Shown here: piece after piece, positions 2,822-56,467 of the stretch | Numbering within the stretch: position 1 is the stretch's first letter | How the letters are laid out: each line of letters opens with the position of its first letter | Origin: Gautieria morchelliformis | Taxonomy: Eukaryota > Basidiomycota > Agaricomycetes > Gomphales > Gomphaceae | DNA length: 64,000 nucleotides | Direction of reading: 5' to 3' | Assembly (NCBI GenBank): GCA_015179125.1 | Contig: WHVA01000136.1 | Location: forward strand, 168,268 to 232,267 | Made by a program: the position numbers and the translations under genes | Notes under the pieces: generated by a model | The model's database searches: none | What the model was told of the DNA's origin: nothing | What the model saw: the letters and a program-made list of their open reading frames with translations, nothing else

Positions 2822-4072
2822 ATGCTTCCAGCATCGGTAAGTATACACACTGATTACCTGTACATCTTGAACTCCAGCGTAGCCTGGTGCCTCCTGATGC
2901 AACACCTATGTGGCATCCATGGTCTATACTATGCTGCGGTCTCTGCACCTTCACTTTTTTATTTTCTGCGTTTTTGTGACGTTCAGAAACTTTCTAATCT
3001 ACTGCTTACTCGCACTAGACTCATCAGGACCTGCGTCCCCATCGGCCTTCGGTGAACGACAAATTGGATATCAGTTCACGATATCTGCCACCCCCACGTG
3101 GCTATGAAGCATTTTGTCACCACCCACATTTCCATCTGTACGAGACGACTCGTACATCACAGGAGATGCCTCATGTGGCACCCAACAGCCCAAGCGAGCT
3201 CCATGCTCGTGCTGAGGAAGGTGGGCTCCCTATGTGATTCATGATATTCATGCTCATCCCCTACCTGTTTGATAGCAGACCACGGTCCACATTTCGAAAA
3301 TCGGGTGTACTACCCAGAACACTACCAGGCGGGGGTCGTTCCTTTTGCTGCGGAAGGTAGGCTTCCTATGCGACCCATTGATTATATTCATGCTCATCCC
3401 CCTACCTGTTTGATAGCAGACCACCGACGTTTACAAAATCGGGTGTACTACCCGGAACATTGGCAGGCCGCATTCGATAGGATGGATCGTACGCGTACCA
3501 AGTATTCATGAGCTGACTACTACTCACGCTCCGCTTGTGTAGCCGCGGCCGTCGCTGAATGCGAACGACGGGGCCCAAACGCCTTGCATGATGCCACGAA
3601 CATCGTAACGGACAAATTGCCGTGTACATGGCCGGACGCCATCAAGGCGGCCATCTTGGGGTCTCCGTTCAACATGCTGACTTGCAGGGACATATTTACG
3701 GTGATCCAAGCACGGTTCCCACTGTGCACAAATGTTAAAATCGTGAGTTGTCTTCATCTTTGTTTCGGCCTTCGCTCGGCATGTGTGTCGTTTCTATCTG
3801 TTCCGATTGCAGAAGCTGGGTGACTCGGGATCACTAGTGTATTGATACTGATTGCTTGTTCTTGTTTCTAGGCGAGGGTCAGTAGCGTGTTGAGTACAAA
3901 CCCACAATTCGAGAAGCGAGAGTGGTGGCGGCTTGTGAATCGTGTATGCCTCCGAGAGTTAACCACTTTGTCTTGCTATGCTCATTTGGGCTGTGGACGT
4001 ATGTGGAGACGGAGACCCGGGTGCCGAGAGGATCTTAGAGGAAGAGGAAGGGCAAGCAACCAGAACATCTAG
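2822..4072 (+). pseudogene. Divergent forkhead-domain gene or pseudogene (copy 3)
   Basis: Coding segments that join in frame are 3019-3220, 3357-3488, 3543-3742 and 3872-4072 (245 codons including the stop). The two downstream introns (3489-3542, phase 1; 3743-3871, phase 0) are at the same places and phases as in the forkhead genes at 18977 and 23701. The second exon carries the forkhead core 'IKAAILGSP...LTCRDIF'. The third carries 'VLSTNPQFEKR', matching the end of helix 3 onward. Helix-3 contacts (N-S-x-R-H) are replaced, the 'EPGKGNYW' wing is missing, and the Trp before helix 3 is lost. The N-terminal part is uncertain: 'MLPAS' at 2822 and an exon from 2878 are possible, but no good phase-matched donor links them to 3019. 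An in-frame TGA at 3235 is removed only if 3221-3356 is spliced. It may be a neofunctionalised factor or a decaying copy. Confidence 0.65.
3211..3482 (+). repeat. 136-bp tandem duplication within the forkhead copy 3 coding region
   Basis: The unit starting 'gctgaggaaggtgggct' at 3211 recurs as 'gctgcggaaggtaggct' at 3347, an offset of 136 bp. Both units encode the pre-domain 'NRVYYPEH' motif. The length is not a multiple of three, so the duplication shifts the frame. Each copy begins with an AGGT, so 3221-3356 starts with GT and ends with AG. Confidence 0.85.
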
Positions 4073-5795: not shown

Positions 5796-6280
5796 ACGAC
5801 TTGGGGCGGAGCCTTCGTCGACGCAGCAGGGGTGGCTGAAGTGTCTCTTGGAACAACCTGTTCAACTCATGCCTGCTGGGAAGGCAACGTTATAGATGTG
5901 TATGGCCATAAGCAATGATTAGATCATGTGGTGGTGGCGGTGATGATGATGATAATGAACATGGCGAGATAGCGTTAGCGATAGCTTGTGGTATGAGGTA
6001 GGACAAGCGATTAGGAGATACGTATGACACTGGGAGATAAGCGTGCAAGATGATGAGAGTACATATGCAGAGGAATGAGATGGAAGGTGCCCACGTGTTA
6101 CGATAAAGATTGTTATTTCTTGATCAAGTCTTTAAGCTTTAAGCCTAGCTTGCGCAAAAGCAATGTCTTCCGGCAAGACCGGGACTTATTGAACGAATCC
6201 TCTGAAAAGGGACGAGCTGGGTCGAGCCAAGAAACGCGGCTCCACTCTCAACAAAGGAGGGCGAGCAAGCGACGCATGTC
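5796..6280 (+). repeat. Second rearranged duplicate of the MFS/arrestin 3' ends
   Basis: A short arrestin-like piece (5800-5845, like 12190-12225) joins a segment like 11250-11690. That segment holds the last MFS codons ('gctgggaaggca...ttatag' near 5876), the spacer and the arrestin C-terminal coding end (to about 6275). The same unusual junction occurs near 170 in the copy at the window start, so both derive from one rearranged ancestor. The arrestin frame is broken. Confidence 0.75.
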
Positions 6281-6645
6281 TGCTGATCACGTCTAACCCA
6301 AATCAGGTCTCAAAATCGTTCTCCGATGCTTCCTGGAAATGTGCGCGATAGCTATCAGCGCTCTCAAAATTACAAGGCTATATAATCTGGCACCTTTCTT
6401 TCAGCAGTTCATCCATACCCACTCCCACTCCTCCACCATTCGTGAGTATGCATACCGATTACCTGTGTATCTCAAACTCCAGCGTAGCCTGGTGCCTCCG
6501 GATGCGACACCTGTGTGGCATCCATGTTCTATACTATGCTGCGGTCTCTCACTGCTTACTCGCATTAGACTCATCACGACAAACTGGATATTGGTTCACG
6601 ATATCTGTGGCACCCCCACGTGGCTATATAGCCACACTTGCATGG
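6281..6645 (+). repeat. Dispersed copy of the forkhead copy 3 promoter/leader region
   Basis: Closely matches 2612-3100: 'tctaacccaaatcaggtctc', a TATATAAT at about 6385, the pyrimidine-rich leader, and the stretch encoding 'RSLVPPDATP'. The ATG found at 2822 is missing here and several deletions are present. It is fused directly to the arrestin fragment at about 6275. Confidence 0.8.
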
Positions 6646-6650
6646 AAAGT

Positions 6651-6824
6651 TCCGGGTAGTACACCCGATTGTCGAAACGTGGTCTGTTGTCTGCTATCAA
6701 ACAGGTAGGATGGGCTTCCTATGCGAATCATTGATGATATTCATGCTCACCCTACCTGTTTGATAGCAGACCACGGACCACGTATCGACAATCGGGTGTA
6801 CTACCCAGAACTTTGCCAGGCCCT
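6651..6824. repeat. Inverted repeat of the 'YYP' motif segment
   Basis: The left arm, 6651-6707, reads 'ccgggtagtacacccgattg...ctatcaaacaggtag'. The right arm, 6756-6822, is its reverse complement ('ctacctgtttgatagcag...cgggtgtactacccag'). Both match the motif-coding segment at 3262-3330 of the forkhead copy 3 locus. About 50 bp separate the arms. Confidence 0.8.
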
Positions 6825-7375
6825 ACCTGCTTTTTTTTTTTCTTTTTCTATTTCCATTTATATCCATTGAGTCTGCTCATGTAGGATAATACATGTCATG
6901 TAACTACCAGACCATGATCAGGGTGACTCAACATTAGCCCTAAGGTGGGTGGTCCCAGGTTGGACTAACACCCCAAAGAAATTAGCGACTGTAAGGTATG
7001 AGAAGTTAATAATGTAAATGGGTGGGCAAGTCCCGTAACACAGCCGAAAGCGTCCTTGCATGTCATGACTACATACGAAAGAGACCTTTGTCAAGAGTGA
7101 AAGGGAACAGGACGGGCAAACGAGGCGGGCGCGGCAAGCGGATGGGTAAGGCGTGTGGGACGAGCGGGCGCGTGGGACAACCGAGCGTGCATGCGGAACG
7201 GGGTGTGCGGAACGGGCAGAGCTTATGGGACATGCAAAAGGTGGGTGCGACGAGCGATGCGTGTGGGCGGTGTTGGCTTGATGTTTTCCTGTGAAAATAT
7301 CTGTTGTGTGTCAGCTGTCAATTCTGCTGTGGGGGAAGGTCAGTTCTAGTTCATGGGCTGGGAGGAAGGGGGAGT
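6825..7375. other. Homopyrimidine tract and G-rich low-complexity stretch
   Basis: A poly-T/C run occupies about 6829-6856. A G-rich region (7090-7290) has loosely repeated 'gcgtgtgggac' words. The overlapping frames there are products of composition. No gene is supported. Confidence 0.5.
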
Positions 7376-11505: not shown

Positions 11506-14500
11506 TCACGATGCAGATTGTTGATATTTCTTGATCAATTCTTTAAGCCTAGCTTGCCCAAAAGCCATGTCTTGGGGCAAAACTGGGGTAACTTTATTGG
11601 ATGAATCCTCTGAAACGGACGAGCTGAGGGTTGAGCTAAGAAAAGGCGGCTCCACTCTTGACAAAGGTGTTGAAGGAGGGCGAGCAAGCGACGCAGTACT
11701 CGACAGGTAAGGTCTAGCGTGAGACGGAACAATGGCGGCAGGGACCGATGTTGACTTGACCAAATTTGCAGGCTGGCGAGGCTCCGACCTTAAATGTACA
11801 CGTGTGGCCGCGTTTTCGTTTGTAGGTGTCGGTCTTTCTCCAGTGCATGGAGCCCTAGGGTTTAGCTTTGCCCCACCTAAGAACCCAGGGGTTGTAACAG
11901 CCGTCCTAGTGACTGGTCTTGCCGGAGGCTTAAACTGGTCACATTTATCCTCTTTTTGAGCCATGGAAGCCCATAATGCTGCTACAGAAGTCGTGATTCC
12001 ACCCCTGCCTCCCCGTGCTGAACGCACGTCATATTTTGTCTCGGAGTTGCCTTGCGGACGCAGAAACTTGGAAGATTGCTGTGCCTCCTTTTCAGGCTCT
12101 GGTGCAGGGGGAGGCATGGATAGTGTTTCCTCTGACGCTGTTTCGTCCAAGGGCGGTACCGGTTTGCGGCGGCGAAAGGAGACTGGGGACGGAGCCTTCG
12201 GTGACGCAGCAGGAGTGGCTGACAAAATCGGAGTGTCCACCACAGATTTGGACAACGGCCTGCCTTGTAAGACATCTGGCTTGTGTGGCTTTGGCGGAGA
12301 TACGGATTCTGGAGGTGGACTGAAGGATTTCGCAATCGAAACGGGGTCACTTGGCGCCCTTGCTGTCTTGGTCTTTGGGGGCGAAACGGGAGTTCCTGAT
12401 GATGCAGGTACAAGTACATCACCCGGTGTCTTCTCGCTCGACGGTCCCTGAACTGGAGATATGCCTTCTGTCCCGCTATTCCTTCTTAGTGGTCGGGCAG
12501 TAGGGTCTGGTCGAGGAGCTACGTCACCCAACCAATCAGCGACTCTACCCTTAGCAGCCTTCTTCAGTCTAATCGCCTCCAGTTCCTTGGCCTTCTCCTC
12601 TCTCAAGCGTTCCTTCGGTGTCGCAGGTGCTTTATCAGCGGCAACCGCTCGCGCTGAAATTCCATCCTTGACATTCCCTTCACTCTCCACGCGTGAGATT
12701 TCGGAGACAAGAACGGGTGTAGAGGGCGAGGCCATTTCCTGGAAAGCCTTGCGTTGACTGAAACCTGTCGAACGGGTAGGTGCCAATGCCAAGCTTGAGA
12801 TCTCCAATTCTCCGGCGTCCGGGTGTGTAGATGCACTTAGATGTGGGATGACGGGTGAAGTCGCGGTAAGCCCTAGTTCAAAAACGGATGGGCGGTAAGG
12901 TGCATTAGGTTTGCGAGTTCCAACCTCAAGCAAAAGTCGCTTTTCGAGCGCGTCCAACCCATTGGAATGTTGCTCAGGGCTCAATTTTAGGGCATCTATA
13001 CTTACAATCTCCTCATCCCGGCCCCTGCCAGTCCATTCCTGGCCCTTGCCATCTGTGCTGATCCGCCGGGCCATAGGACTGGGTCTCAAAATTGACTTAT
13101 TGGGTTTGTCCTCTTTGGCCTTTTCAAACATTTGTTGGACTGGTTGCAACCCAAAGACTTCACTCGCCTTTGGGATGCTCGCCACCTTTGTCAACACCTT
13201 TGCTTTGCCGCTAGGGACGGGCGGCTTCGGCAGAGTCTTGTCCGTCTCCATCTCCTTCTCGGCTCTCTCCAAATATTTCAATACATCCTTGACGCTCTGT
13301 CCTTCCCCACCAGGTGCAAGATCGACCAACTTCTCCAACAGATCAACCCTCTCGCTTCTTCCAGTTCCATGGTCGGTGTGCTTGACCACAGCATCGGCTG
13401 TGAACGAGTGCCGTGGGGATAGAAGCGGTCGTGGAGACAGTACAGGCGGGCCGTCCTGGTGCCGTGGACTTGTTGCATGCACCATAGCCGCCGGGGGAGG
13501 CGCCGATGATGTGGTGGGAAATCGGTGTGACGTAGGGGACATGGACCTTGCGCGTGTTGACATCCGCAAGTGATGAGAGATTCTTGAAGCACGCTCGCCT
13601 TTGCCTTCTTCTCCTCCTGCGTCTGTGAGCAACTCTACGTCGGGGATGGAATGTGATTTTGGATCGAATGAGAGGTCAGTTTGCTGCTGGCGGTGATGGA
13701 CAGCAGGGTATACCGTCCCCACAGCCTCGACACCTGGAAGCCCAGTCGGAAGACCGCTAAGTGCTGGGGAGGCATTGTGTAGTTGCCCGGTACCAGCGCT
13801 GTTGGGTCTTGCTGGATACGCGAATGGAATGAGTGCCATAGGTTGGAGGGGGTAGTAGTAAGCTACTTGTGAATCAGGGGCATAATATGGGACAGGTGAC
13901 ACAGCAGCTGGTGGCGGGGGAGACCATAGATGTCGGGTTGGAGATGCGACGTGTGCATATGGAGGGATATGCGAAGAGAATGGATGGTGCTGGTGCGGTG
14001 GGGAAGCAGATGACGACGGAATTGGAGGTGAAACATAAGGATACGATGGCGAGGATGTTCCCGAGTCTGGACCCGGTGAGTGCGTGAAGTACGGATGTGG
14101 AGGATGGAAGATAGGAGACATCGAACGTGGACTTCGGTGGCCATACAACGCATCCGGCGCGACTGCATGGGCCTGTGCATCTGGGGATAAAGAGGGTTCA
14201 AAACTTGGGGTGGGGTCGGGAAGTGTAGCAGGATGGCTGAGCTGAACCGGCATCTCAAACACCATATCCTTACTACAAGATCATCGAGTATGAGAGGATG
14301 ATGAAAAGAAAGTTTAAATAACCACGTACTGTCCCAGGCCCATCCCAATCTTTACGCCTAACAGGCACTGTATCTCGAATAACGGCTCCGTGCGTCTGCG
14401 GCCCCCTTCAGCATCATCGGAACCTTCACGAACCCCGCCCTTGACTACACGTGCTGCTTTGGGTACATCAAAGACGAGGTTTGCAACACCCTCTGTGCCC

Positions 14501-18976: not shown

Positions 18977-20698
18977 ATGTCTCTCCCGTATCGTTCTTCC
19001 ATCGTTGAACCACAGCATCTAAGCCACCGACCAAGCCAATCGCCCTCCATGCTCTTCAGTAGTGACTCAGCTTCGTCAACGCGGCGGGTGCCGCATTCTC
19101 ATGCCACCCCCGTCGCCAAGGCTTCTCTTCAAGAGCAGTTTCATTCTTTCCGCTCCACTGCCATTTCTGCTCCTCCCGTCTCCGAGGCTCAAACAAACCC
19201 CATTTTCGACTCAACTCACCGTGAAAATCGTCATCACCGTCTCCCCTCGCTGCCTTTCACCGTTTCTCCTGTCTCAGATTGCTCCTCTACGGGACACCGC
19301 CACCGCTCGCCAGTGGGTTATCCGACGTCAGTGGCACGCCGTCTGACTCCAGCTATCAACCTTCCCACCCCGTTACGCATGCCATACCAGGACTATGAAC
19401 GAGAAGCACGGAACTCGACTAATGGGACGGATTCTGATAGGTTCCCATCCAATCACGACGAATCTTATGCCAAAGCACCGCATAGACATGCCAATGGCGC
19501 TTTCTCGCGACGATGTGACCCGGGTGGTGCCACGTTAACAGCATCAACGCCGATAATTTCACACCGTGTCGCTTGGGAGGACTCCCATCTGATGACCCCT
19601 AGCGAGCTTCCGCTTCTTGGAACAAGAACCGCCGACCGATGTGGTGACTTATATCGACAAAAGTCACCCGCTGACTCACTGGGTGAACATTGGCTCCCGG
19701 AAACTGATGGAACCAGGACATCCTTTCAACCAGTTCATAGGCTCCCGTTGAGGCTAACAACTGGGATGTTACCTAATAGAGAGTATTATCCATCACCACA
19801 TCACCAAAATCAATTCGACGCGCTTTACTTGCAAGACGGTTAGTAACTCTTCTCCGATGTTTATGATACTCGCGTGACCCACTCAACCACATCCAGCTTC
19901 CATCTTGCAGGAACGCGAGAACCTAGGACTCAATACGCTCGACTGTGAGTTTGGGCGACCTCCGCAACACTCAATGCCCATTATCATCGAGTGTGCGATT
20001 CTTGGGTCCCCACAACAAAAACTTACCCTTTCGGAACTACGCCTGACACTCAAGCGACGGTTCCGATATTATGAACAGGAGGAAGAGAAAGGTATTAAAT
20101 CATGGGAGGTGAGTCGCTCCATCCTCGATTTTCGGCCTTGTTTTCTCGTATGTTCTATGAGGCATGAGGGTTTTAATCGTCCCCTTGTTCAATAATGTCT
20201 ACCTCTAGTGCTGTGCACATTTCGCTTCACCGGAAACCATTTTACCGACCTTCGCTATTCGTCCCCAGCTACCCTTTACCAGCTGCTAACCCTGCTTAAC
20301 AATAGCGGACTCTTCTACAAAACTTATCAAAGAAAACACGTTTTATTAATACGGAACGTTCGATGTCCGAGCCAGGACAAGGTGGTTATTGGCAGGTGAA
20401 TCACAATGCTCCGCCGCCCAATCGTGCACGCAAGCGCAACATCAGGCGCCTTGCGTCGCCTCTACAAGCTAGTACATCGGCCTCTCCTATTGACCAGACA
20501 CATTCTGCTAACCCACCCACGCTTGATGGTCCATCGAGCCTCTTTCGCTCTGTCCCCGCTGAACTCTTGCCCGGTGGACGTGCCAATGGGATGAACGATC
20601 GATGTATTGTCCTCCCGAGAGTACAGGAGAAGCCCACTGAAGTAACACCATCGAGTCCAAGACGATGGATATTTACTACTATGGTGAATAATATCTAA
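18977..20698 (+). CDS. Forkhead-domain protein with altered recognition helix (copy 1)
   Basis: Exons 18977-19838, 19897-20108 and 20306-20698 join in frame to 488 residues. The N-terminal 280 residues are Ser/Pro-rich, ending with '[13 protein letters not shown]'. Exon 2 carries forkhead helices 1-2: 'IIECAILGSP', 'KLTLSELRLTLKRRFRYY', 'KSWE'. Exon 3 starts with helix 3 as 'RTLLQNLSKKTRF' in place of the canonical '[13 protein letters not shown]', then wing 1 'MSEPGQGGYWQV' and a basic stretch 'RARKRNIRR'. Residues that normally read DNA bases (Asn, Arg, His of N-S-x-R-H) are replaced by Arg, Leu and Gln; only N-L-S is kept. ATG 18977 was chosen as the first in-frame Met. Introns have phases 1 and 0, as in the copies at 2822 and 23701. 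The C-terminus could extend by another exon near 20795. Confidence 0.8.
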
Positions 20699-21010
20699 TA
20701 TGAACCCGTCACAACACGAATTGGAAACAAATTCGTCAATGGGAGATGTATTAATGTAGCGATCCAGTGGCTGATCACCTTCCTTTCTTACAGGACAGAC
20801 TACGAGACTGACGATATGCTCAACCCACGATCATGCAACGACGAGAGCACACGAGATCCCAAGCCACGAAGAGGGATATGACAAGCACACCCTCCACGAC
20901 GAGCGGGGAACATCGTATCCGACCGGTTGACTCCCTGCAATCAAAATACGCCATTTCTCTGGACCCCGGGCAGGAAGTCTGGAGGAAAGGGGCGTTGAAA
21001 TGGGTCACAG

Positions 21011-21134
21011 GGAGGTTGGCAGGACGTGACTCTCAGACGTTGCAAGAGAATGGAGGTTGGGCAGGACGTGACTCTCAGACGTTGCAAGAGAATGGAGGTT
21101 GGGCAGGACGTGACTCTCGGACGTTGTAAGAGAA
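21011..21134 (+). repeat. Minisatellite, three units of 41-42 bp
   Basis: Units begin 'ggaggttgg(g)caggacgtga' at 21011, 21052 and 21094 and end 'caagagaat'. The first two are almost identical. It lies 300 bp downstream of forkhead copy 1. Confidence 0.95.
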
Positions 21135-23700
21135 TGAGTGAGCGGGCGATGTGTAACTTGAGCGACGAATGGCCTCCTTTATAGCATTTCATCCTACCGG
21201 CTTCGTCAGTACGGTAACTCATTGCCACAATCTTGCTGGCAGAACCTGCAAGGGTGAGAACCTCGAGTGTCTCCAGACGCTCATCTCCTACCAAGACGCC
21301 ACGTGTTTCTTCTTCTAATTGAGTGCACCCGGTAGCTCACCATAGCCATTTATGTATACATGCCTTAGAAATTACTTGCTCATGGTGTGATAGGACCGAT
21401 GTGATGAGGTGTAGTCTCGTGATATGGTGTGGACCCCTTCCTTCTGAGGTCCGGGCGTGCTGAATGCCGTAAGGGTAAGGGTATGCAAGCGCAGTAACAC
21501 GATGCAGAAGCGAATCCGTGAATGTCCACGGTGGGAGATACCATAGGCAGACGAGTCTTGGCGCATGATGCCGGTAACCGACACCGATTAGCAGCATTAA
21601 ACGACCATGATGGCTGCGTACATACAAGCGTTGAGAAAGGAAACCACCTCTCGTGTGGTAGGGCGGGCGAATGACCAGGTAGCAGGACATGCTTGGGCTG
21701 TTCCCGAGAACCCTCGTCTCGACAGATCTTCCATGTATGACGTGTGTTCAAGCCGGGATGAAGATTTGATTTGTCGAGAGAAGTTGTGATTTGCTTGATA
21801 ATATCGACAAATGAACACTCTTGGCCTTAGTCCTCGGACGAAGCATGTCATTGGCGAAGTCAAACGATATTCGCGAGTCTCCTGGCGATCCCCATCCGTC
21901 AGTCCTCTCGATATGGCTGAATAGTCATGATGCTTCAATCCGTCTCGCATCGATGTGTGGTGAGCTGGGGCTTTGGTGGACATTGGGATGTGTAAGCAGA
22001 GGGAACCATTACCGGCAGCATCCACCTACGGCGTCACTGACAGGACCACTCACATCCTATAGGCCCTATAAGCCTGGAAATAACTTTTCGATAGTTGCGA
22101 CAGAGCCGCCTTTGTGGAGGTTGTGTGGTAGACCACGATGGGCGGAGGTGGAATTTGGGGACGATGGCCATTGTATTAGTTTGTTTGTCTTTCTCTCCCC
22201 CATGCCCCTTTGAAACCTGTGGCTTCTGCCTCACCTGCAAATGCAATTACCATCGTCTGTTCTACCTCTCATATTTTTGCAATTTTCCGTAGGATAAGAC
22301 ATCCCATGTTTTCCTGCTGTGCCGCGGTCCTTCTTAGATTTCCGTCTGGTCTACTGGGTCTCCCACGGCCAGCACCGGAAGGCAACTGCCAGCCAGACTA
22401 TTGCGTTCACTGGAGTGTTCTTTCGTCTATCTCCAACAACAACTGGTCGCGGAGAGGGCAATTGTCAGCACAAATAATAGCATATCTATCGATGCTGCTG
22501 CGCCCACTCCCGCGCGTCTTTGCAAGCTTTCTGGGCGACAGTGGACTGTAGCCAATCTGGGGGTGTGACCGGATCGTTGCCGAACACAAACTTGTTTCTG
22601 GATGCGCGTGTAGGTCCCTGTTAGCTACCCGTAGGAAAACCCATCGACGCTGCCGCGCTGGAGATTTGGTAAGTCCGATCACGTAAAATTAAGTTTTTTT
22701 CTCAACGAGTTGATATCCCGCGCCCCCACAGTACGGTTGTCCAGCAGTAGAATCCGGTGTTCTTTGTCGACTACTGAGCCAGCTCTGTGAAGGATGCTCG
22801 CTCAGATGTCGTGAACTGAGGAATGAGAGGAATAAATTGCTGCGAAAGGCTGAGCCACTGAACCTACCATGGTGGACTGGCGACCACAATGGGCTCGGCA
22901 GACCCCGCACGTTAGGCATTCAGTCCACATAATCCGGGGCCGTCTTTGTCCCTACAACTCTAAATTCTTTTTCACCTCCACCCAACACCACACACCACAC
23001 CACACACCACACTTTCAACGACTGGTCCAGTGGACACTTCCCGACAAGCGCCTCTCGGAGTCAACACGTCCACATTGCCCTTTGATCTTCGCTTCAGTTC
23101 GCTTCTGGCGTTCTTGTGTCCCGCTTGCGCTCCACCTGCCACCATCGACCCGCTCTGCGTTCCCCCTTCCTATCACAAGCCATTGCACCACAGTAATATC
23201 AGCAACGACTCGTGGGCACGTCACACGTACACAAAGCCATCCAAACGCCATCTCCCACGCCATCATATATTCGGGGCCCTACATTGAAGTTACCTGTGGA
23301 GACTTATTTTGGATTCACCTGTGGAGATTTATCTTGGATTCGTGAGTGTGCTACTTTGACACCCTCTTCGTTCTCGTTGTGGCTGCTGGGGCAATGTGGG
23401 GCATGAGGGTAGGGTGGTGCGATGTCGTGACGCGTTTCCGGCACTGGTGCTGTGCTTGTACGTTCTGCTTGCGTGTTTCTTGCAACATGGCTATAGATTT
23501 CTAGTGTACGCTCTCACTTGACGCGAGATGTATCGGTTCAGAATTCTTCTTCCATTACGACGAGCACCGTCGTCAACTTCACACGAGATGCTCATATCTG
23601 TCTCCCAGCTTAACTTAGGTTCACTCTCGACACGCGCGATCTTAAGATATCTTGCTCCCCATCTCGGCCAGCTCCACCAACGTACATCGGATCTACGACG
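21135..23700. other. Intergenic region between two forkhead genes
   Basis: Several frames of 60-158 codons occur on both strands and overlap each other; none shows a recognisable domain or paired splice sites. A short CA-rich run ('caccacacaccacaccacac') lies near 22985-23010, within the presumed promoter or leader of the second forkhead gene. Confidence 0.45.
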
Positions 23701-26196
23701 ATGCATCCTTACCCTAGTGTACCACCGACCGGCCATTACGCACCCCGCCCTTACCCACGCATCTCGCCTCATCGTCAGCCATATCTCCCGACTGGCCCTC
23801 CTTCCTCGGCATACACCCACATCGGCCGTGATCATTATCTTCGACCTCCGCACGGGAGAGACACCTACCGCCCTGCGTATCATCCTTATGCGCCCCCTTA
23901 CAAACAAGATTACCACCATCTCCACCACCGTTTACCTCCGTTGCCCCATCCGCCTGCGCCCCCTGCGCCTCCTGCACCATATCGCCAAAAACGTGTGCTT
24001 CCTCGCGCTCAGTCTTCCCCTATGCCTACAAACATGTACTATCGCGTACCAGCTCAGGACGACGGCCAGCGCGTACCGCCGCGTCCGCGTTCGTCGTTGG
24101 GCTCCACCGAGGCGTCGCAGAATGATGAAGACTATCCATGCTCGGGTCGGATACGTCTCGAAGGCGAGCCCCGGGCGCGGTCAGATAGCCTGCGTAGCAC
24201 GTATAGTTCGGACGTGCAAGAGAACACGCCCTCCCCTCTCGACCCCGAGGGCATCCGGCTGTGGGAGGAGCAGCACGCTGAGACGCGGTCACGCACCGAG
24301 TCGTCTGGATCAGGTTCGTACCGGGACGATGACAGCGTCGAGAATGGCCGGGACAAGGTTGTGATCGATCCCTCCTTAATGAGCACCTCGCAACTGTCCC
24401 ACTCATACTCGTCGTACGGGTATGATGCCAGTGGTGGATCGCGGTGGGAGGAGCAGCGCACTGCGACGCGGTCACGTACCGAGTCGTCTGGATCTGGTCC
24501 GTACCGTGATAATGATGACTGCGTCGAGAACGGACAAGGCAACGTTGTGATCGATCCTGCCTTAATGAGTGCCTCGCGATCGTCCTTGTCATCTTCGTCT
24601 TACGGGTATGATGTCAATGATTCACCAGTGGATGATGGGTCTGTGGGATGTGACGGAGCTGGAGATGCTGATGATGGAGCTGGAGATGCTGATGATGGAG
24701 CTGACGATGGAGCTGAAGATGTTGACCGCGGAACTGAAGACGTCGACCATGAAGTTGCACAAACTGAGATGCCATACTCGGAGAAACGATCCAATTCGGA
24801 GTACTACCCTAGTCCGCATCATCAGGCGCAGTTCGCTGATCTAGCATCACAGAGAGGTACGTAGATCATCCGTACCTCTGTATACTTTTTACGCATTCTC
24901 GTTATTGCATCATTTGTCAACGTTTGCTCATGGTCACGCTTTTGCCAATAGACAAGCAGGGGCGCATAGGCCTCAATTCCCTTGTGGACGGAGAGCGAGG
25001 AGACCGTCCCTCTTATCCAATACCAACTATCATCAAATGCGCCATCCTGGGCTCGCCGCGCGAACGGCTCACCCTTTCGGAGATATATGCGGCAATGGAG
25101 GAGCGTTTCCTCTATTACAAACACTCGAATAAAAATTCCTGGAGGGTAAGAGGGTTCTGTTTGCTGTCCCCTAATCCCATCATTGGCAATGGCATGTCGA
25201 CCACGGACGCATGTTCATGCGCCATTTCAACTCTTAACTTTCCATGCATATACTGATGTCACGATCTAGAATTCAGTCCGTCATAATTTATCATTAAACA
25301 ATCAGTTTGAGAAGAAACCGCGGCCTATGACGGAGCCTGGTAAGGGCAACTACTGGGTCGTCGTTCCGGACATGCCACTGGGCAACAAGCGGGTCCGAAA
25401 GCGCAACAAGAAGCCGGGGAAACGGGCATTGGCTGCGGCGAGGGCGGCTGAGGAGGCGCGGTCTGCAGGGGAGGAGCCAGAGGCGAGTGCTGATACCAGC
25501 ACTGATTTGGACAAGAGTGGTGATTCAGAAGTGGCTGTCCAACCGCCCGTAATGCCGGTGCACCCGGCTGCCAGGCCAGGGACACGGATAGCTACCACAT
25601 TGCCGGCTAATGCAGGGAGCTATGCTGCCGTGACGGGCGTTATCAAGATGCCGGAGATCGACCGGGAATCGTACCGGCCATGGCCGGGCGACCATTCTTC
25701 TGCCACCTCCTCTATTCGTGAGGACAGCAGCCACGAGTCGTCGAGGTCTTCATCTGTACCCGGCCAGGACGCGCAGAACCAGCCACAGCACAGTCCCTCT
25801 ACGGCTGACCGACCTCCAGGCGAATCACTTTTAACATCTGGGAACGCCTTGCCACGCCCGGCCTCTCTATCCTCCGAGTCCCCACGCCAGCAACCAAGGG
25901 ATGAACCTGCACCCGAGGGCGGCTCAAGCGTTGGGCCACAACGCACATCTCCATCCAGAGGGTCTCGTCTTTACAACCCAATCGCAGCGAAACCAAGCCC
26001 GCGAAGTGCATTTGACACGCTGGCTGACCAACTTGCGCGTGAGGGGACCGGCGCTCAAGGTAGTGGTGGCCCAGCATCGAGGACGCATAAGGCCCTTAAC
26101 CGCAGGCGAAGACCCGTGACCGACGGTAACGAGTCTAGTGGTAGTGGCCCGAGTGGTGATGAGGAGTACCTGCGCAGCAGAATTAGGGGGCGATGA
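23701..26196 (+). CDS. Forkhead (FOX) transcription factor with canonical DNA-binding domain (copy 2)
   Basis: Exons 23701-24856, 24952-25145 and 25270-26196 join in frame to 758 residues. Layout: Pro/Tyr/His-rich N-terminus; two 61-residue repeats (about residues 188-309); acidic Asp/Gly/Ala repeats; '[13 protein letters not shown]'; then the forkhead domain. The domain reads '[10 protein letters not shown]', '[18 protein letters not shown]', 'SW', helix 3 '[13 protein letters not shown]', and wing '[13 protein letters not shown]'. A basic stretch 'KRVRKRNKK' follows as a likely nuclear signal, then a long Ser/Pro/Glu-rich tail. All canonical base-contacting residues are kept, so this copy should bind forkhead sites in the nucleus and regulate transcription. 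Introns are phase 1 (24857-24951) and phase 0 (25146-25269). It is the probable ancestral-like member of the local trio. Confidence 0.9.
24262..24627 (+). repeat. In-frame duplication of 183 bp (61 codons) in forkhead copy 2
   Basis: A unit beginning with 'tgggaggagcag' (encoding 'WEEQ...[11 protein letters not shown]...YRD') starts at 24262 and again at 24445. Each unit contains 'VENG', 'VVIDP' and 'SYGYD'. Length is exactly three times 61, so the frame is kept. The copies differ at about a quarter of residues, so the duplication is not very recent. Confidence 0.9.
24656..24730 (+). repeat. Short acidic repeat within forkhead copy 2
   Basis: The 21-bp word 'gctggagatgctgatgatgg' repeats in tandem and then degenerates, encoding Gly-Ala-Gly-Asp-Ala-Asp-Asp type runs. 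This is a likely site of length variation. Confidence 0.8.
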
Positions 26197-29720: not shown

Positions 29721-32700
29721 ATGGCTGGCCCGAATTTCAAGGTCCCCACTGCTCTATTTGACAAACCATTCCCGGACCTCTTCACCCTCAGTGCACAGGC
29801 AAACCCCGATCGTGACCTCGTACAAATCATACAAGAGCACCCCGATGCGCCTGTCGACGCCACTCGATACACCTGGGGGCAGACTTTGCGGCATGCCCAG
29901 AATGCGGCCGTCGACATCAGGGCGCGATGGGCATCTCGCCTCAAAGACGCAGGTGCAGAGCGGAGCGCCCCGCCGCCTAGAGAACCCGGTTCAGCACCCA
30001 TTGCCGTCGGCATTCTGTCTAATACCAGTGGATATGAGCTGTATATCAACATCCTAGCCTGTACATTGCATCGGTGGACCGTGCGTGTGTGACCTGCGCG
30101 TGGAGTGATATTCTGATGGTTTGCATTGGCAGGCGCTCCTTATCTCGCCCAGAAACAGCCCGGCCGCGATAGAGCACCTGCTTGTAACATCCGCCTCGTT
30201 GCTCCTTCTCGTAGATGCCCCCAACATGCCCATCGGCAGCGAAATGGAACGGAATATATCTATTCTCACGGCCACACGTACGGCCACTCTCGATACGCTG
30301 GCGAGTGATGCTTTTGCATCCCCCCTCTCCCCTTTCTCCCCTGCACAGCTCAGGGCGGAGATGGACTCGCCCGCCCTTCTCTTGCACACGTCTGGGTCTA
30401 CTGGTCTGTGACTCCACGGTCTCTGCCTTTAAAGCTATGGCTCAGCTGCATCCAGGTCATCCCAAGATAATCCCGTGGACACACAATTTCATGCTTGGTC
30501 CTGTTAGGGTACATCATAAAGCGGGACAGCATCTAGTCGGACTTCCATTCTACTGCGTTGCGCCGCTCAGCCACGCCCTAACCCTATTCGCTTGCGTTCA
30601 GAATGTTCTAGCTGATGGCTTCCTCATCACCTTCGTCGCCACTCCCACCCCGAAACCGCCCTCTGCCCAGGCGCTTCTCCGACACCTTCCTTTCATCGGG
30701 GACGGTGTCGTCAGTCTCCCACCTTCAATCCTCGAGGAACTGCATGCCTTAGGCCCTGAGGCCGTCAAGACGGCAGCAGAAAGTCTGCAATACGTAGGGT
30801 ATGGCGGGGCACCGCTGAAGAAAGAAATCGGCGACGCGTTGGTCGCGGCTGGGATGCGACTCCGCAATGGATACGGGTCGTGCGTATTTGACGATAGGCA
30901 GACGCCTATGCATGCTCACAGGCTAGTTACAGCACAGAAACCAGTGCGATATCTGCGTTTGGTCGGCGGGGACACCACAGAGATTGGGAATATATCGAGC
31001 CCAGTAACTTATATAACATCGTATGGCTTCCTGTTGACGGGTATACAAATGCGAAACATATGCTGCTTACGGTCGGTCTTTTTCTCGCATTTGACCCCAC
31101 TAATCTCCTACACGCTCCGACAGCCTAGCTCCATAGGTAGTCCTGCCGTGATTAATCACGAAAATCCCAAGGGGTATGCTACAAACGATCTCTGGGAGCC
31201 GCATCCAAGTGTTCCAAATATGTGGAGATTCCATTCTCGTATGGGTAATGTCGTGCGTGGTATAGTTTTTCCAATTTGGCGGCAGTCGCAGAACTTACGT
31301 GGACCGCAGACTGTGCTCAGTAATGGTGAAAAGACGGACAATAAGCAAATAGGCACGTATTACCATCTCCACGGGGACAGCATCTGTTGACCAGTGTGGT
31401 GTGACATGTAGAGGAGCTTCTCCTCGCCGACAAACGAATTCTTTACGTACAGGTTTTTGGCGCAGGTCGCCCCATGAATGGCATTGTTCTGCAGCCGAGA
31501 GACAACGCCGTATCTGCCTCTGATTTTCTCTCGCAGGTCCAACCCACCATCGAGCATGCTAACACCATCATCCCCAAGCATTCGCGGCTCGTACGGGAAC
31601 TTATCATCGTCGCACCATCCGATAAGCCGTTTGCGTTAACTGATAAATCGACTGTCAAGAAAAAGGAGACGCTCGACAGATTCCAGGAAGAGATTGTAGC
31701 TGCCTATATGATTCTGGATGAAGGAGGGGGCGGTGAGGACTGGGCATTTGAAGGCAGTGTAACAGATGAAAAGGATCTGAGGAGGTTTGTGCGAAGCGCG
31801 ATATATCAAGTGCTTGGAGCAGGTGTCGCTGACGATGACGATTTGTTTGAGCATGGTAATATATCTTGACCCGACAAGCCTTTGTTCTAAGCAACCTCAC
31901 TCATCGTTGATAGGTTTCGACTCTTTACTATCTCTACGGCTTCGTTCGGCCCTCCTCTCGGTAACCAAGAAGACGGTGACCACCACAAAACCGACGCCAA
32001 GGAATGTGGTCTATACCAACCCGAGCGTGAACGCTCTCACAGTATACCTCCTCTCGCGATCTGTGCCGGACACTCTTGACGCTTTGAGTGCCGCTTCAGA
32101 ACGTATTCGTTCCTCAATTGCCAAGTATTCCAGTAATTTTTCCCGCCACCAACCTGGCTCGACATTGGTCGACGGCAAGGTGATCGCACTGACTGGCTCG
32201 ACCGGGAGCGCGGGTAGTTCGATCCTGGCGTTGCTTTTGGATAGGAGTGACGTAAAGAGGATTTATTTATTGAATCGCAAGGGGAACGAACGCCAGGACA
32301 TTCGCCAGGCGAAAGGATTCAAGGAACGAGGACTGAATCCAACTAAACTGGAGGCGAAGAAAGGGAGCCTAATCTATCTGGACATTGACTTGGCTAGGTC
32401 CGACCTTGGGCTCAAGGGTGCGGATTACACCGATGTGAGCTTCCAACCGGCATTACTCGCAGAAAATTCTGAACGCGTGTTCGCCAGCTACGGGACAACG
32501 TAACGCACATCATCCACGCCGCTTGGCACCTCAATTTCAACCTCATCCTCGAAAGCTACGAACGCGTACACATCGCGGGCGTCCGACACCTGATCGACCT
32601 CGCCCTGGCCTCTCCGCACGCACGCCCCCCCCGGCTCACGTTCCTCTCCTCAATCGCAGCAGCCGCGAGGTATCAAGGCCCGTCACAAGAGCCCCCCTCG

Positions 32701-52325: not shown

Positions 52326-55217
52326 TTAATATATTCCGATTTGTTCATTGAGGATCTTCACTCTAGGACTAGGAAGTCCTTTGGTGAGGATATCTGCCAA
52401 CATTTGTTCGGTTGGCAAATAAACGAGCTTGGCTTGTTGATTTTTGATTATATCTCGAAGGAAATACAATCTGATGTCGAAATGTTTGGTTCTCGTGTGT
52501 TGTTGAGTGCCATACGTGATGGCAATGGCTGATTGATTGTCTGAATAAATTTTGATGGGTCTGTTCAGTGGTTGGAATATTTCAGAAATAAAATGGCGCA
52601 TCCAAAGAGCCTCTTTGCCCGCATGGGTCAGGGCGACGAATTCGGCTTCAGTTGATGAGAGGGCTACTATCGACTGTTTCTGGCAACTCCATGAAACAGT
52701 GCCTCCATCAATCTGAAATAAGTATGCCGAATACGAACGCCTATGACTCTGTGAACCCCAATCCGCATCTGAATACCCCATCAAGCCGTCTCGATTTCTT
52801 CCAAGTGTGAGCTTGTAATGCTTCGTGCCTTTCAAATATTTGAAGACACGTTTGACTGCATTCCAATGTGTGCCACCTGGGTTTTCGAGGAATTGCGAAA
52901 GCAATGACACCGCAAATGCAATGTCAGGTCGAGTGGCCACAGCTGCCCACATCAGTGATCCTATAGCTTGCCTGTACGGGAACTTCGACATGGCTTTCTT
53001 GCCTCTCTCTGTAGAAGGACATTGGTCTTTAGATAATTTTACGGCTGGATCAAGAGGCGTAGCGTAAGTCTTTGCATCTTCGAGATTGAATTTTTTGATG
53101 ATCTTCTCGATGTATGCAGGTTGTGAAATTGCAATAGTTTTCTTCTGCCAGTCTCTTTCGATTTTGAGATTCAATAGCCAATGAATCTCGCCTAGATCTT
53201 TCATACTGAAGACCTGAGCAAGATCTCGTTTGACTTCGTCCAGGACTGACTGATTCTCAGCTGTGATGGTGAGATCATCCACAGCTGTTGCAATGATCAC
53301 ATGCCCCTTTCCGCCACGTCTATAAAATACAGCCCCATCTGTGGCTGACGTAGTGAATCCTAATTTGTGGAATTCACCACTTAGACGTTTGTACCATTCC
53401 CTTCCAGATTGTTTGAGGCCATAGAGTGCTTTCTTCAAAAGTAGCACTTCGTCTTTGTCTCCAGACTCATATCCATACGGCTGCTTCATGTAAATAGGTT
53501 CAGGTAGTGTAGCATTGAGGTATGCATAGTCCACGTCCATTTGATGGATAGGCCAGTCATTCCTAGCAGCAATGGCGCATATGATCCGTAGGGAGGATAA
53601 CCGAGCAACAGGTGAGTATGTCTCATCATAGTCGACTCCAAACTTCTGTGTGAAGCCTTGGGCGACCATTCTCGATTTAGGCATTATTGGTTTCCCTTCT
53701 GGATTACGCTTCCAAAGGTAGACCCATTTATTACCGACAATATTGGCTCCAGGAGGTGGTTTGGCTCGTTCCCACACTCCCTTGTCGATTAGGGCCTCAT
53801 ACTCTTTGTCCATTGATTTCTTCCATATAGGATTATTCAGAGCTTCGTCTGCATTGCTAGGTTCAATTTGACTCAAATCCGGCGCCTTGTTATTGTTTTG
53901 ACCGTCGGTTAGAAACGCACTGATGGCACACTCATAGCTACTGATGCCATCAATCTCGGAGGATAATTCTTGGTCGAATAAAACTTCTTTATGGTCCTCA
54001 ACGTCCTCGTAAGCTAGCGTAGTCATATGTGCGCCAGCTTGTCTCTGGGTTTGAGATCTTGTTACGGGACCTGATGGGGCCGGCTGCACTTGTTGTTGAC
54101 GGATCCTTTCGCTTCTCCTTATCGGTTCAGCTTCTCTAGGTCTGTCATCAACTCCCTGAATAGGTTGCAGCTTTTCAAGATATTCCTCTGGTGCATTTTC
54201 ATCAATTTCTTCGATCTTTGCCTCTTCGCTGACTAAGCGACCGGGCACAGGCACTGATGCCGGAATGGCCTTCTTCTCCTCTCTAGACGTAGGTAGCTTG
54301 GATTCCTCAATAGAAATGATTGGGACCTTTCCCTTCTTCATCTCTGAATCAAACACAACGTTCCGCTCGACAGAAACTTTGTGCGAGTCAGGCCAATAAA
54401 TATAATGACCATGGCTCTGCGCAGAAATTCCTATCCACCGAGCTCTCTTGGCACGAGCTTCCAATTTATCTCCCTGAGTGACCTTAACATAGACTTCAGT
54501 TCCCCACGCGTGAATGTCTTTGAGATTCGGTTTCTCATGGTGGATCATCTCGTAGGGCGTTTTATCCGGTAGAGCTCTTGTGTGCGTCCTGTTCCTAAGA
54601 TAATTGGCATGCTGTATTGCATAGCCCCATAATATCTTAGGAAGGCCTGATTCTAACAGCATGGCACGAGTTCTCTCAGTGAGAGTTCGGTTCAGACGTT
54701 CGGCAACACCATTAGACTCTGGTGTGTCGTGTACCGTCAACTGATGCTTCGTGCCTTGTTTGGCTAGATGCTGTTCGAATTCAGAGCTCGTATACTCGCC
54801 CCCTCGATCAGAAACAAGTGCCTTGATGTGCACATTTCTCTGTCGAAGCATTAAAGCCTCATAGAGCCTGTACTTTGAGAATGCTTCTGATTTGTTCGCC
54901 ATGAGATAGATCACCGATTCTCTTGAGTAATCATCGATAAAGGAGACATAATATGACTTCTTATCGATTGTGAGGTGCCTTGCAGGTCCCCAGACATCAG
55001 AATAAATTCTGTCACCGAATTTTGATGTTCGGTCTCTGGGTTCTCGAGGAAGAGGTTTGCGTGCAATCTTGGCCTGAATACATGCATCACAGACAATTCT
55101 ATCGCCTGTGGAGCTCAGTTCAATGCCCAATATCATGCCATGAGTTAATAGATGTTGTAGGGACTTCTGTGAGATGTGCCCCATTTTTTGATGAATTTCC
55201 ATGGCAGACAAACACAT
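52326..55217 (-). CDS. Copia Pol ORF: integrase, reverse transcriptase, RNase H
   Basis: 963 codons without stops. Integrase: the zinc-binding His/Cys motif starts at 'HQKMGHISQ' and ends 'CDACIQAKIA'; core 'YSDVWGP', 'SDRGGEYTSSEF' and 'ESNGVAERLNRTL' supply D, D and E. RT: 'NKWVYLWKRN', 'YDETYSPVARLSSLR', 'MDVDYAYLNATLPEPIYMKQ', catalytic 'TAVDDLTI' (an A-V-D-D form of Y-V-D-D), 'KDLGEIHWLLNLKI'. RNase H: 'GYSDADWGSQ', 'SCQKQSIVALSSTEAEFVAL', 'IYSDNQSAIAI'. All catalytic acids are visible, so pol may be functional if expressed. The ORF start is an overlap point with gag, not a typical ATG context. Confidence 0.93.
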   Translation of the reverse strand: MCLSAMEIHQKMGHISQKSLQHLLTHGMILGIELSSTGDRIVCDACIQAKIARKPLPREPRDRTSKFGDRIYSDVWGPARHLTIDKKSYYVSFIDDYSRESVIYLMANKSEAFSKYRLYEALMLRQRNVHIKALVSDRGGEYTSSEFEQHLAKQGTKHQLTVHDTPESNGVAERLNRTLTERTRAMLLESGLPKILWGYAIQHANYLRNRTHTRALPDKTPYEMIHHEKPNLKDIHAWGTEVYVKVTQGDKLEARAKRARWIGISAQSHGHYIYWPDSHKVSVERNVVFDSEMKKGKVPIISIEESKLPTSREEKKAIPASVPVPGRLVSEEAKIEEIDENAPEEYLEKLQPIQGVDDRPREAEPIRRSERIRQQQVQPAPSGPVTRSQTQRQAGAHMTTLAYEDVEDHKEVLFDQELSSEIDGISSYECAISAFLTDGQNNNKAPDLSQIEPSNADEALNNPIWKKSMDKEYEALIDKGVWERAKPPPGANIVGNKWVYLWKRNPEGKPIMPKSRMVAQGFTQKFGVDYDETYSPVARLSSLRIICAIAARNDWPIHQMDVDYAYLNATLPEPIYMKQPYGYESGDKDEVLLLKKALYGLKQSGREWYKRLSGEFHKLGFTTSATDGAVFYRRGGKGHVIIATAVDDLTITAENQSVLDEVKRDLAQVFSMKDLGEIHWLLNLKIERDWQKKTIAISQPAYIEKIIKKFNLEDAKTYATPLDPAVKLSKDQCPSTERGKKAMSKFPYRQAIGSLMWAAVATRPDIAFAVSLLSQFLENPGGTHWNAVKRVFKYLKGTKHYKLTLGRNRDGLMGYSDADWGSQSHRRSYSAYLFQIDGGTVSWSCQKQSIVALSSTEAEFVALTHAGKEALWMRHFISEIFQPLNRPIKIYSDNQSAIAITYGTQQHTRTKHFDIRLYFLRDIIKNQQAKLVYLPTEQMLADILTKGLPSPRVKILNEQIGIY

Positions 55218-56467
55218 ATGGGCTTGAGCACTTGGTGACTGGAGGCATCATCGCACCGACCGATCGAGACGAGGGTAGCAGCAATTTTTGGTGCATAAAA
55301 TGTATCTTGCAACGTGACTTCTACTGTTTTATCTCCAACCTTGTTGGATAATACAAGCAGTCCTGAACCGAAGGCATCAAAAGTGCCTTTGTTGGCTGCT
55401 CGGATAGTCCTCGGCTGTGAGAATTGACAGTAGTTCCTCAATAAATTTTTGTGAGGAGTCATATGCGATGTCGCTCCGGTGTCGAGTATAACTATAACTC
55501 CTGAGGATGTGCTCAGATTGAAATTAGAGCACTCGTCAAAATTGGTGAAGGCAAGAGGCCCATCACCACTTTCCTCAGAAGAGGACTCTTCTTCGGCAAC
55601 ATTCGCTTTTGCTTTACCCTTCTTCTTCTTCTTGCCTTTGGCTTTTTTCTTCTGACGTGGTCCTTGACCTTCTTTACCACCTCCTTTAGCCCAGCAATTT
55701 TCGATGGAATGTCCAGGCTTTTTGCAGTTGGTGCATATATGCGCCTTCTGCGCCTTCTGGTCCTTCTTAGTAGATGAACCAATAAACACCTGCTCTTCTT
55801 GCGGGAGTGTTTTCTTCCTGTCATACTGAGCCTTTAGTACCCTAATAATATTATCAGGGACCAGTGGCATCCCGCATTCTTCAAGCGAAGTGGTAAGGGC
55901 GTTCATGACTGCCTCATAGGATGGTGGAAGTGACGCAAGGATGATGTCCATGAATTCTTCTTCGGAAACTCTGGCTCCCATCTCATTAAGACGAGCATAT
56001 AGGTCTTGGGCCTTGTCCAAATGATCTCTCAAATCTCCATCCTCAGGACATCTCATACTGTGGAGTTGTCTCTGCAGGCTGGTGAGGACCATCTTGGGCT
56101 TTTTGGTCATTTCATTGACCAGTGCATCCCAAGTCTCTTTTGCTGTCTTCTGCTTCTGTAGCATCAGAGCTAATGACTCTGACACTGAGACGATGATTTG
56201 GGTCTTGGCTTGTCCTTCTCTAGCAAGGTATCTTTCCAGCTTCTCCTCAGCCTTATCCATCTGAGTTTCCTCAGCTTCTGTAAGAATATGGCCTGGGGGC
56301 ATAACTGGAGGATCAGGAGGTCGAGTGACTCTCCCTTCTACATGCTTGAGTAGATTTTTGGACTCGAAATAGCTGATGAGAGTGGCTCGCCACAATGGCC
56401 AATTACTTCCATCAGTAGCAAGCTTCTCAACATCCAATAGCTTCTCAGAAGTGTCTCCGGGGCCCAT
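55145..56467 (-). CDS. Copia Gag-protease ORF
   Basis: 440 codons. The N-terminal half is a UBN2-type Gag ('NWPLWRATLISYFESKNLLK', 'SMRCPEDGDLRDHLDKAQDL', 'ILASLPPSYEAVMNALTTSL'). A CCHC knuckle 'CTNCKKPGHSIENC' is followed by a Lys/Glu-rich linker. The protease motif is 'ILDTGATSHMTP'. Near the end the frame leaves the family pattern after 'TLVSIGRCDDA' and overlaps the pol ORF by 73 bp in another frame, consistent with a small deletion or a recoding site. ATG 56467 sits inside the PBS. Confidence 0.88.
   Translation of the reverse strand: MGPGDTSEKLLDVEKLATDGSNWPLWRATLISYFESKNLLKHVEGRVTRPPDPPVMPPGHILTEAEETQMDKAEEKLERYLAREGQAKTQIIVSVSESLALMLQKQKTAKETWDALVNEMTKKPKMVLTSLQRQLHSMRCPEDGDLRDHLDKAQDLYARLNEMGARVSEEEFMDIILASLPPSYEAVMNALTTSLEECGMPLVPDNIIRVLKAQYDRKKTLPQEEQVFIGSSTKKDQKAQKAHICTNCKKPGHSIENCWAKGGGKEGQGPRQKKKAKGKKKKKGKAKANVAEEESSSEESGDGPLAFTNFDECSNFNLSTSSGVIVILDTGATSHMTPHKNLLRNYCQFSQPRTIRAANKGTFDAFGSGLLVLSNKVGDKTVEVTLQDTFYAPKIAATLVSIGRCDDASSHQVLKPICVCLPWKFIKKWGTSHRSPYNIY

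Follow-up and report, generated by a model that had tools for sequence, protein, structure and literature searches.

A stretch of 64,000 nucleotides from Gautieria morchelliformis (contig WHVA01000136.1, here C156, positions 168268-232267; the window) carries one ordinary forkhead gene, gene C, and two relatives, loci A and B, in which the DNA-reading helix 3 of the forkhead domain has been rewritten. The three belong to a family of at least 65 loci in the 122-Mb genome (1,113 contigs). Comparison of the predicted proteins, all exon-intron structures being predictions from the DNA, shows that the family is of forkhead origin, that it is large, and that the residues which read DNA bases have been exchanged around a retained hydrophobic core. 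We think it fairly probable that these loci form a forkhead-derived family of fast turnover which has lost canonical DNA reading and in which some members still work.

The forkhead loci of the window

A six-frame profile search of the window found three exons coding for the first half of a forkhead domain and no fourth. Gene C (plus strand, exons 23701-24856, 24952-25145 and 25270-26196) is interrupted by a phase-1 and then a phase-0 intron, and exon 24952-25145 holds the first half of the domain, while exon 25270-26196 holds helix 3, the wing with GNYW and a basic tail. The domain is complete and scores 98.5 bits with Pfam Forkhead (PF00250), well over the cut-off of 27 bits (all Pfam scores refer to spliced proteins), and its helix 3 has NSVRH, that is, the base readers N-S-x-R-H are present. 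The canonical helix is strongly constrained, since gene C and a copy on contig C164 have a nonsynonymous divergence (dN) of 0.02 and a synonymous divergence (dS) of 0.61 (40 codons from helix 3). The C164 copy was considered as the other haplotype, which was rejected: within the window, the 8.7 kb upstream of it has matches only at 34-42 kb and at 60 kb, in stretches that for the most part also match one another. Because the upstream DNA matches only such mostly repeated stretches, the copy is treated as a paralogue, and a rearranged allele of the gene C region is possible. The window segment 36560-42655 is rich in repeats, with strong guanine-cytosine skew and, near 38.5-39.4 kb, copies spaced by about 242 bases, and parts of it recur upstream of the C164 forkhead copy with 91-95% identity.

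Locus B (plus strand, exons 18977-19838, 19927-20108 and 20306-20698) encodes the helix 3 RTLLQNLSKKTRF and a wing with GGYW. Its phase-1 intron is in frame only via the acceptor CCTAG/GACTC at 19926/19927, which is located 16 bases downstream of the homologous position; given this shifted acceptor the gene is open over all three exons, and the spliced protein passes the Pfam cut-off with 52.6 bits. RTLLQ is found where the base readers N-S-x-R-H belong, and the base-reader pattern is thus absent.

Locus A (plus strand, predicted exons 2822-2836, 3019-3220, 3279-3356, 3420-3488, 3543-3742 and 3872-3943) carries two copies of an exon with a YYP motif, 3279-3356 and 3420-3488. Exon 3543-3742 is entered in phase 1 and left in phase 0, and exon 3872-3943 holds the helix 3 ARVSSVLSTNPQF. 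A deletion has removed the acceptor of the last intron of locus A (plus strand, 3944-4072), which the other seven of the eight aligned rows of its subfamily, the A type, retain, and locus A is therefore probably damaged at this intron. The wing Trp is seen in A-type relatives (GPWW); in locus A, loss of the acceptor separates the wing exon from the rest of the gene. The spliced locus A protein scores 18.8 bits (E-value 0.0017), under the Pfam cut-off, as do all three A-type proteins scored (18.8, 17.2 and 13.1 bits). Locus B is a better candidate than locus A for a working gene. A relic of a further A-type gene (plus strand, 6276-6830) has the 5' flank, the first exons and one YYP exon, and the six-frame search of the window found no domain exon there. 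Positions 6646-6814 inside this relic are a self-complementary stretch built from the YYP exon and its surroundings.

The coordinates, the start and stop codons and the three helix-3 strings agree with a preliminary description of this DNA, which had, however, given locus A fewer exons and had taken 4072, the end of an intron read-through, as the end of the gene. The shared phase-1 and phase-0 introns that it described are present, but an intron before helix 3 is also found in ordinary forkheads of the genome (C726, C571, C440/C474 and C520). Shared introns were therefore rejected as proof of recent paralogy; the intron before helix 3 marks descent, not recent kinship.

Size and subfamilies

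When the genome was searched with first-half exons from four subfamilies, 24, 35, 40 and 37 matches were obtained. Grouped within 2.5 kb, these correspond to 67 places, namely two ordinary forkheads and at least 65 family loci on 44 contigs, a count that includes gene C and its C164 copy and is a lower bound, since the search scores only the best candidates. Most of these loci (57/65) were found at E<=0.001, and the other eight are weaker candidates. The preliminary description, with two paralogues beside a canonical gene, had missed this scale.

The A type occurs at six places on C626, on C969 and at two places on C156; the C425 type at four places on C425 and on C811; the D type on C180, C381, C647, C24, C271 and others; the E type on C392, C1059, C829 and others; the F type on C675 and others; and the B type is locus B alone. 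Four family members lie within 44 kb on C156. Common to the subfamilies that were read are the splice plan, with a phase-0 intron before helix 3 in every one of them, a YYP-like motif farther upstream, the first domain half, the wing Trp and a hydrophobic helix-3 core.

In a DNA search the 5' half of an A-type copy matched many more places, among which C870, C519, C113, C587, C424, C328, C512, C337, C674 and C202 are outside the list from the domain search; C587 and C424 match the A-type gene on either side of the first-half domain exon and not over it. As to relatives beyond this genome, one scan of viral contigs gave 14 pattern matches, of which none was confirmed. Among the titles listed by literature searches, no report of such a family was seen.

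Retained core and replaced base readers

In ten spliced rows the motif A-I-x-G-S-P, one Leu and the wing Trp are invariant, and the Leu and Phe of helix 3 are nearly so. A profile of seven rewritten rows, with gene C, locus B and the E type left out, gave 46 matches at E<=10 in the PDB. The best was FOXG1 (4.1e-10), with an alignment that runs through helix 3 to the wing. One match is labelled eIF3 subunit B, and the other 45 have forkhead names or names that we take to be those of forkheads.

Among 17 non-canonical helix-3 rows, which are related to one another and of which two (C626:223040 and C723) come from copies with lesions, position 3 is hydrophobic, position 7 is Leu or Met and position 13 is Phe or Leu in every case (17/17 each), while the base readers are present as Asn in 2/17, Ser in 5/17, Arg in 9/17 and His in 1/17. 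When one row per branch is taken, all three core positions are kept in 8/8 rows, as compared with 0.2 expected from shuffling within rows, and Asn, Ser, Arg and His are found in 1, 2, 2 and 0 of the eight. The E type retains N-S-x-R and has Asp in place of His. In the tree, gene C and locus B group with the five canonical rows, support for this branch not being firm, and A, D, C425 and E plus F are separate, well supported groups. At least two changes of helix label are forced, the deeper joins being unsure owing to long branches. The earlier proposal that fold and splicing were kept while DNA specificity was changed or lost is in line with the retained core and wing Trp and with the mostly missing Asn, Ser, Arg and His; locus A itself looks damaged at its last intron.

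Selection and the divergence of introns and exons

The ratio of nonsynonymous to synonymous rates (omega) was fitted without L038, L077 and L040 and with one codon of L058 dropped, and twice the log-likelihood difference (2dlnL) was measured against omega 1. For the first-half exon, omega was 0.50 in the A type, 0.66 in the C425 type and 0.60 in the E type (2dlnL 9.57, 3.53 and 2.16), values that do not support positive selection on the whole domain. For the helix exon the corresponding values were 0.83, 25 and 1.94 (2dlnL 0.15, 12.2 and 0.41). There is moderate constraint on the first half of the domain, clearly significant only in the subfamily of locus A, where it fits copies that keep the fold. 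The helix exon shows no such constraint, and an excess of amino-acid change is seen there in the C425 type which is not significant in the A and E types. In the C425-type helix, 13 of 15 codon columns contain an amino-acid change and one a synonymous difference, compared with 38/74 and 30/74 columns, respectively, in the exon before it. The omega of 25 is unstable and comes from fifteen codons in five rows, and recombination is likely.

The introns of the rewritten genes are more alike than their exons. In the helix exon, 38 of 69 sites distinguish locus A from its nearest copy, the inverted C156:149794, whereas the flanking introns differ at only 12/128 and 0/44 sites (together 12/172; Fisher 2e-15). 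Among C425-type copies the introns are 4-10% different. The first-half exon, too, is far more diverged at its synonymous sites than the introns are. In the canonical control pair C440/C474 the introns differ at 21/196 sites and dS is 0.28-0.29 in the two longer exons; for gene C and its C164 copy the values are 30/217 and 0.24-0.61. Since these canonical pairs show the same direction, a divergence of exons exceeding that of introns is general in this genome, though it is larger in degree among the rewritten copies, and because synonymous sites and control pairs go the same way the contrast alone is no proof of diversifying selection. In L031-L038 and L055-L059 the borders between intron likeness and exon divergence are sharp and lie at the splice sites. 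As a guess, the cause would be gene conversion that acts on the introns and from which selection shields the exons. That the conserved introns are hidden coding sequence was rejected for the C425 type, where an in-frame stop follows soon after the donor and one copy has an 11-base deletion.

Capture by a hAT-like element

An E-type DNA query was matched almost in full, and with the same ends (query 820/822 to 2880/2881), in C426, C677 and C438; C355 has a match truncated on the left, and C719 has fragments. In C392, C1059, C665 and C723 the match is internal only, from 1133 to about 2188. The matching unit is a hAT-like non-autonomous element of 2.06 kb which carries the E-type forkhead gene with its introns (L074, L081 and L082; C829, C438 and C426). 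It ends in 16-bp inverted repeats (L074), and perfect 8-bp target duplications were seen by eye in three (L074, L081 and L082) of the four copies whose ends were reached, the fourth being L080, which is shortened on the left. The shared ends, inverted repeats and duplications indicate that one subfamily was spread by a hAT-like element. Other loci hold the gene without the element, and the hAT-like ends also flank shorter stretches elsewhere, e.g. in C559, C696 and C281.

Other features of the window

AMP-binding and NAD_binding_4 domains are found in adjoining frames at 30215-32503, a pairing like that of an adenylate-forming reductase. On the minus strand, 52326-56467 contains Copia-type retrotransposon frames with gag, integrase and reverse transcriptase domains, and 11506-14265 is an open frame of 919 codons with no Pfam match at 1e-3.

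Discussion

The reading that we favour, and for which the chances seem somewhat better than even, is that of a forkhead-derived family of rapid turnover with some functional members and without canonical DNA reading. Loci A and B would derive from a forkhead gene like gene C, and the base-reading residues of helix 3 are replaced, in each subfamily differently, in proteins that may still fold as winged helices. Such proteins would no longer read the usual RYAAAYA site and may offer other DNA, or proteins, a helix-3 surface that can change. New copies come from duplication, frequently within one contig, and in one subfamily from hAT-like capture, and many decay. We infer the loss of canonical DNA reading because the replaced residues are among the core contact residues of helix 3 that are called strictly conserved, across forkheads of differing specificity, in PMC7062188.

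Several observations weigh against this reading. Only locus B and the E type (39.9 bits) among nine spliced proteins besides gene C pass the Pfam cut-off, one C425-type row being just under it (26.9 bits) and the remaining rows at 13 to 23 bits. Purifying selection on the first half is clearly significant in the A type only, one of three subfamilies, and locus B is a single copy in the genome searches. Lesions are present in 3/8 A-type rows (L036 at the acceptor, L038 through a frameshift and L035 through loss of a single base behind the acceptor), in 2/7 D-type rows (L065 and L068, exon ends being uncertain in others) and in 2/9 E-type rows (L077 and L040). The same lesions speak for the alternative that the rewritten copies are mostly functionless, i.e. 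duplicated or transposed forkhead fragments which decay at different speeds and keep the core because their decay is recent. The two stops in L039, the relic at 6276-6830, the lost acceptor of locus A, the position of E-type copies inside a transposon and the A-type helix-exon omega, which at 0.83 is near 1, are all consistent with this. However, no lesion was noticed in any of the five C425-type rows, the first half of the A type is under significant constraint, the core positions are kept in all 17 helices across far-diverged subfamilies and locus B is open over three exons, and we consider general decay conceivable but unlikely.

That the helix is under diversifying selection, and that the proteins are DNA-binding factors of new specificity tracking changing targets (e.g. 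transposons), or another recognition system, is suggested by the C425-type helix codons and by the helix exon of locus A as compared with its introns. The first of these signals is unstable and has no significant counterpart in the A and E types, whereas the second is weakened by the synonymous sites of the first half and by the control pairs, so that this explanation, as far as the sequences speak to it, is highly doubtful. The A- and B-type proteins might instead be decoys or competitors of gene C acting via shared partners after the loss of DNA binding, for which the upstream YYP motif and the fold outside the base readers would be the common features. Forkheads mostly bind DNA as monomers, and such a role is only remotely likely. 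Finally, all splicing is predicted, the first intron of locus B being in frame only with a shifted acceptor, and the helices could seem rewritten merely through misread splice sites. This is barely credible, as independent subfamilies have the same borders around helix 3, with their donor and acceptor sequences conserved, and the same procedure yields NSFRDTLSKNKKF in the E type.

The family shares with FOX transcription factors (PF00250) the first domain half, the helix-3 core, the wing Trp and, with the canonical genes of its own genome, an intron before helix 3. It differs from them in that N-S-x-R-H, kept there according to PMC7062188, is replaced here, and in that most members fall under the Pfam cut-off. 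In forkheads of FHL specificity (FOXN1 and yeast Fhl1) that account describes a changed specificity with the contact residues kept, whereas here the residues themselves have changed. A host gene multiplied inside a hAT-type element is also known from Pseudocercospora fijiensis, in which a histone H3 gene was captured and multiplied (PMC6710886); those copies were inactivated by repeat-induced point mutation (RIP), while here capture concerns one subfamily of an already large family.

What emerges from our data is a transcription-factor gene whose copies come from duplication and, in one of the branches, from capture by a transposon. Many clustered copies and changeable recognition residues on a fixed fold are features that it shares with arms-race families such as KRAB zinc fingers. 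The present family has another fold, and an excess of amino-acid change is seen in one subfamily only. It is tempting to speculate that the forkhead domain was turned into a diversifying recognition scaffold, with dozens of copies that retain the fold and whose DNA-reading helix is rewritten again and again by selection, but on the sequences at hand we regard this as improbable; if true, it would be the forkhead counterpart of the zinc-finger arms-race families. The natural helix-3 variants may in any case help to tell which residues are required for folding, and whether new targets, DNA or protein, are within reach of the domain.

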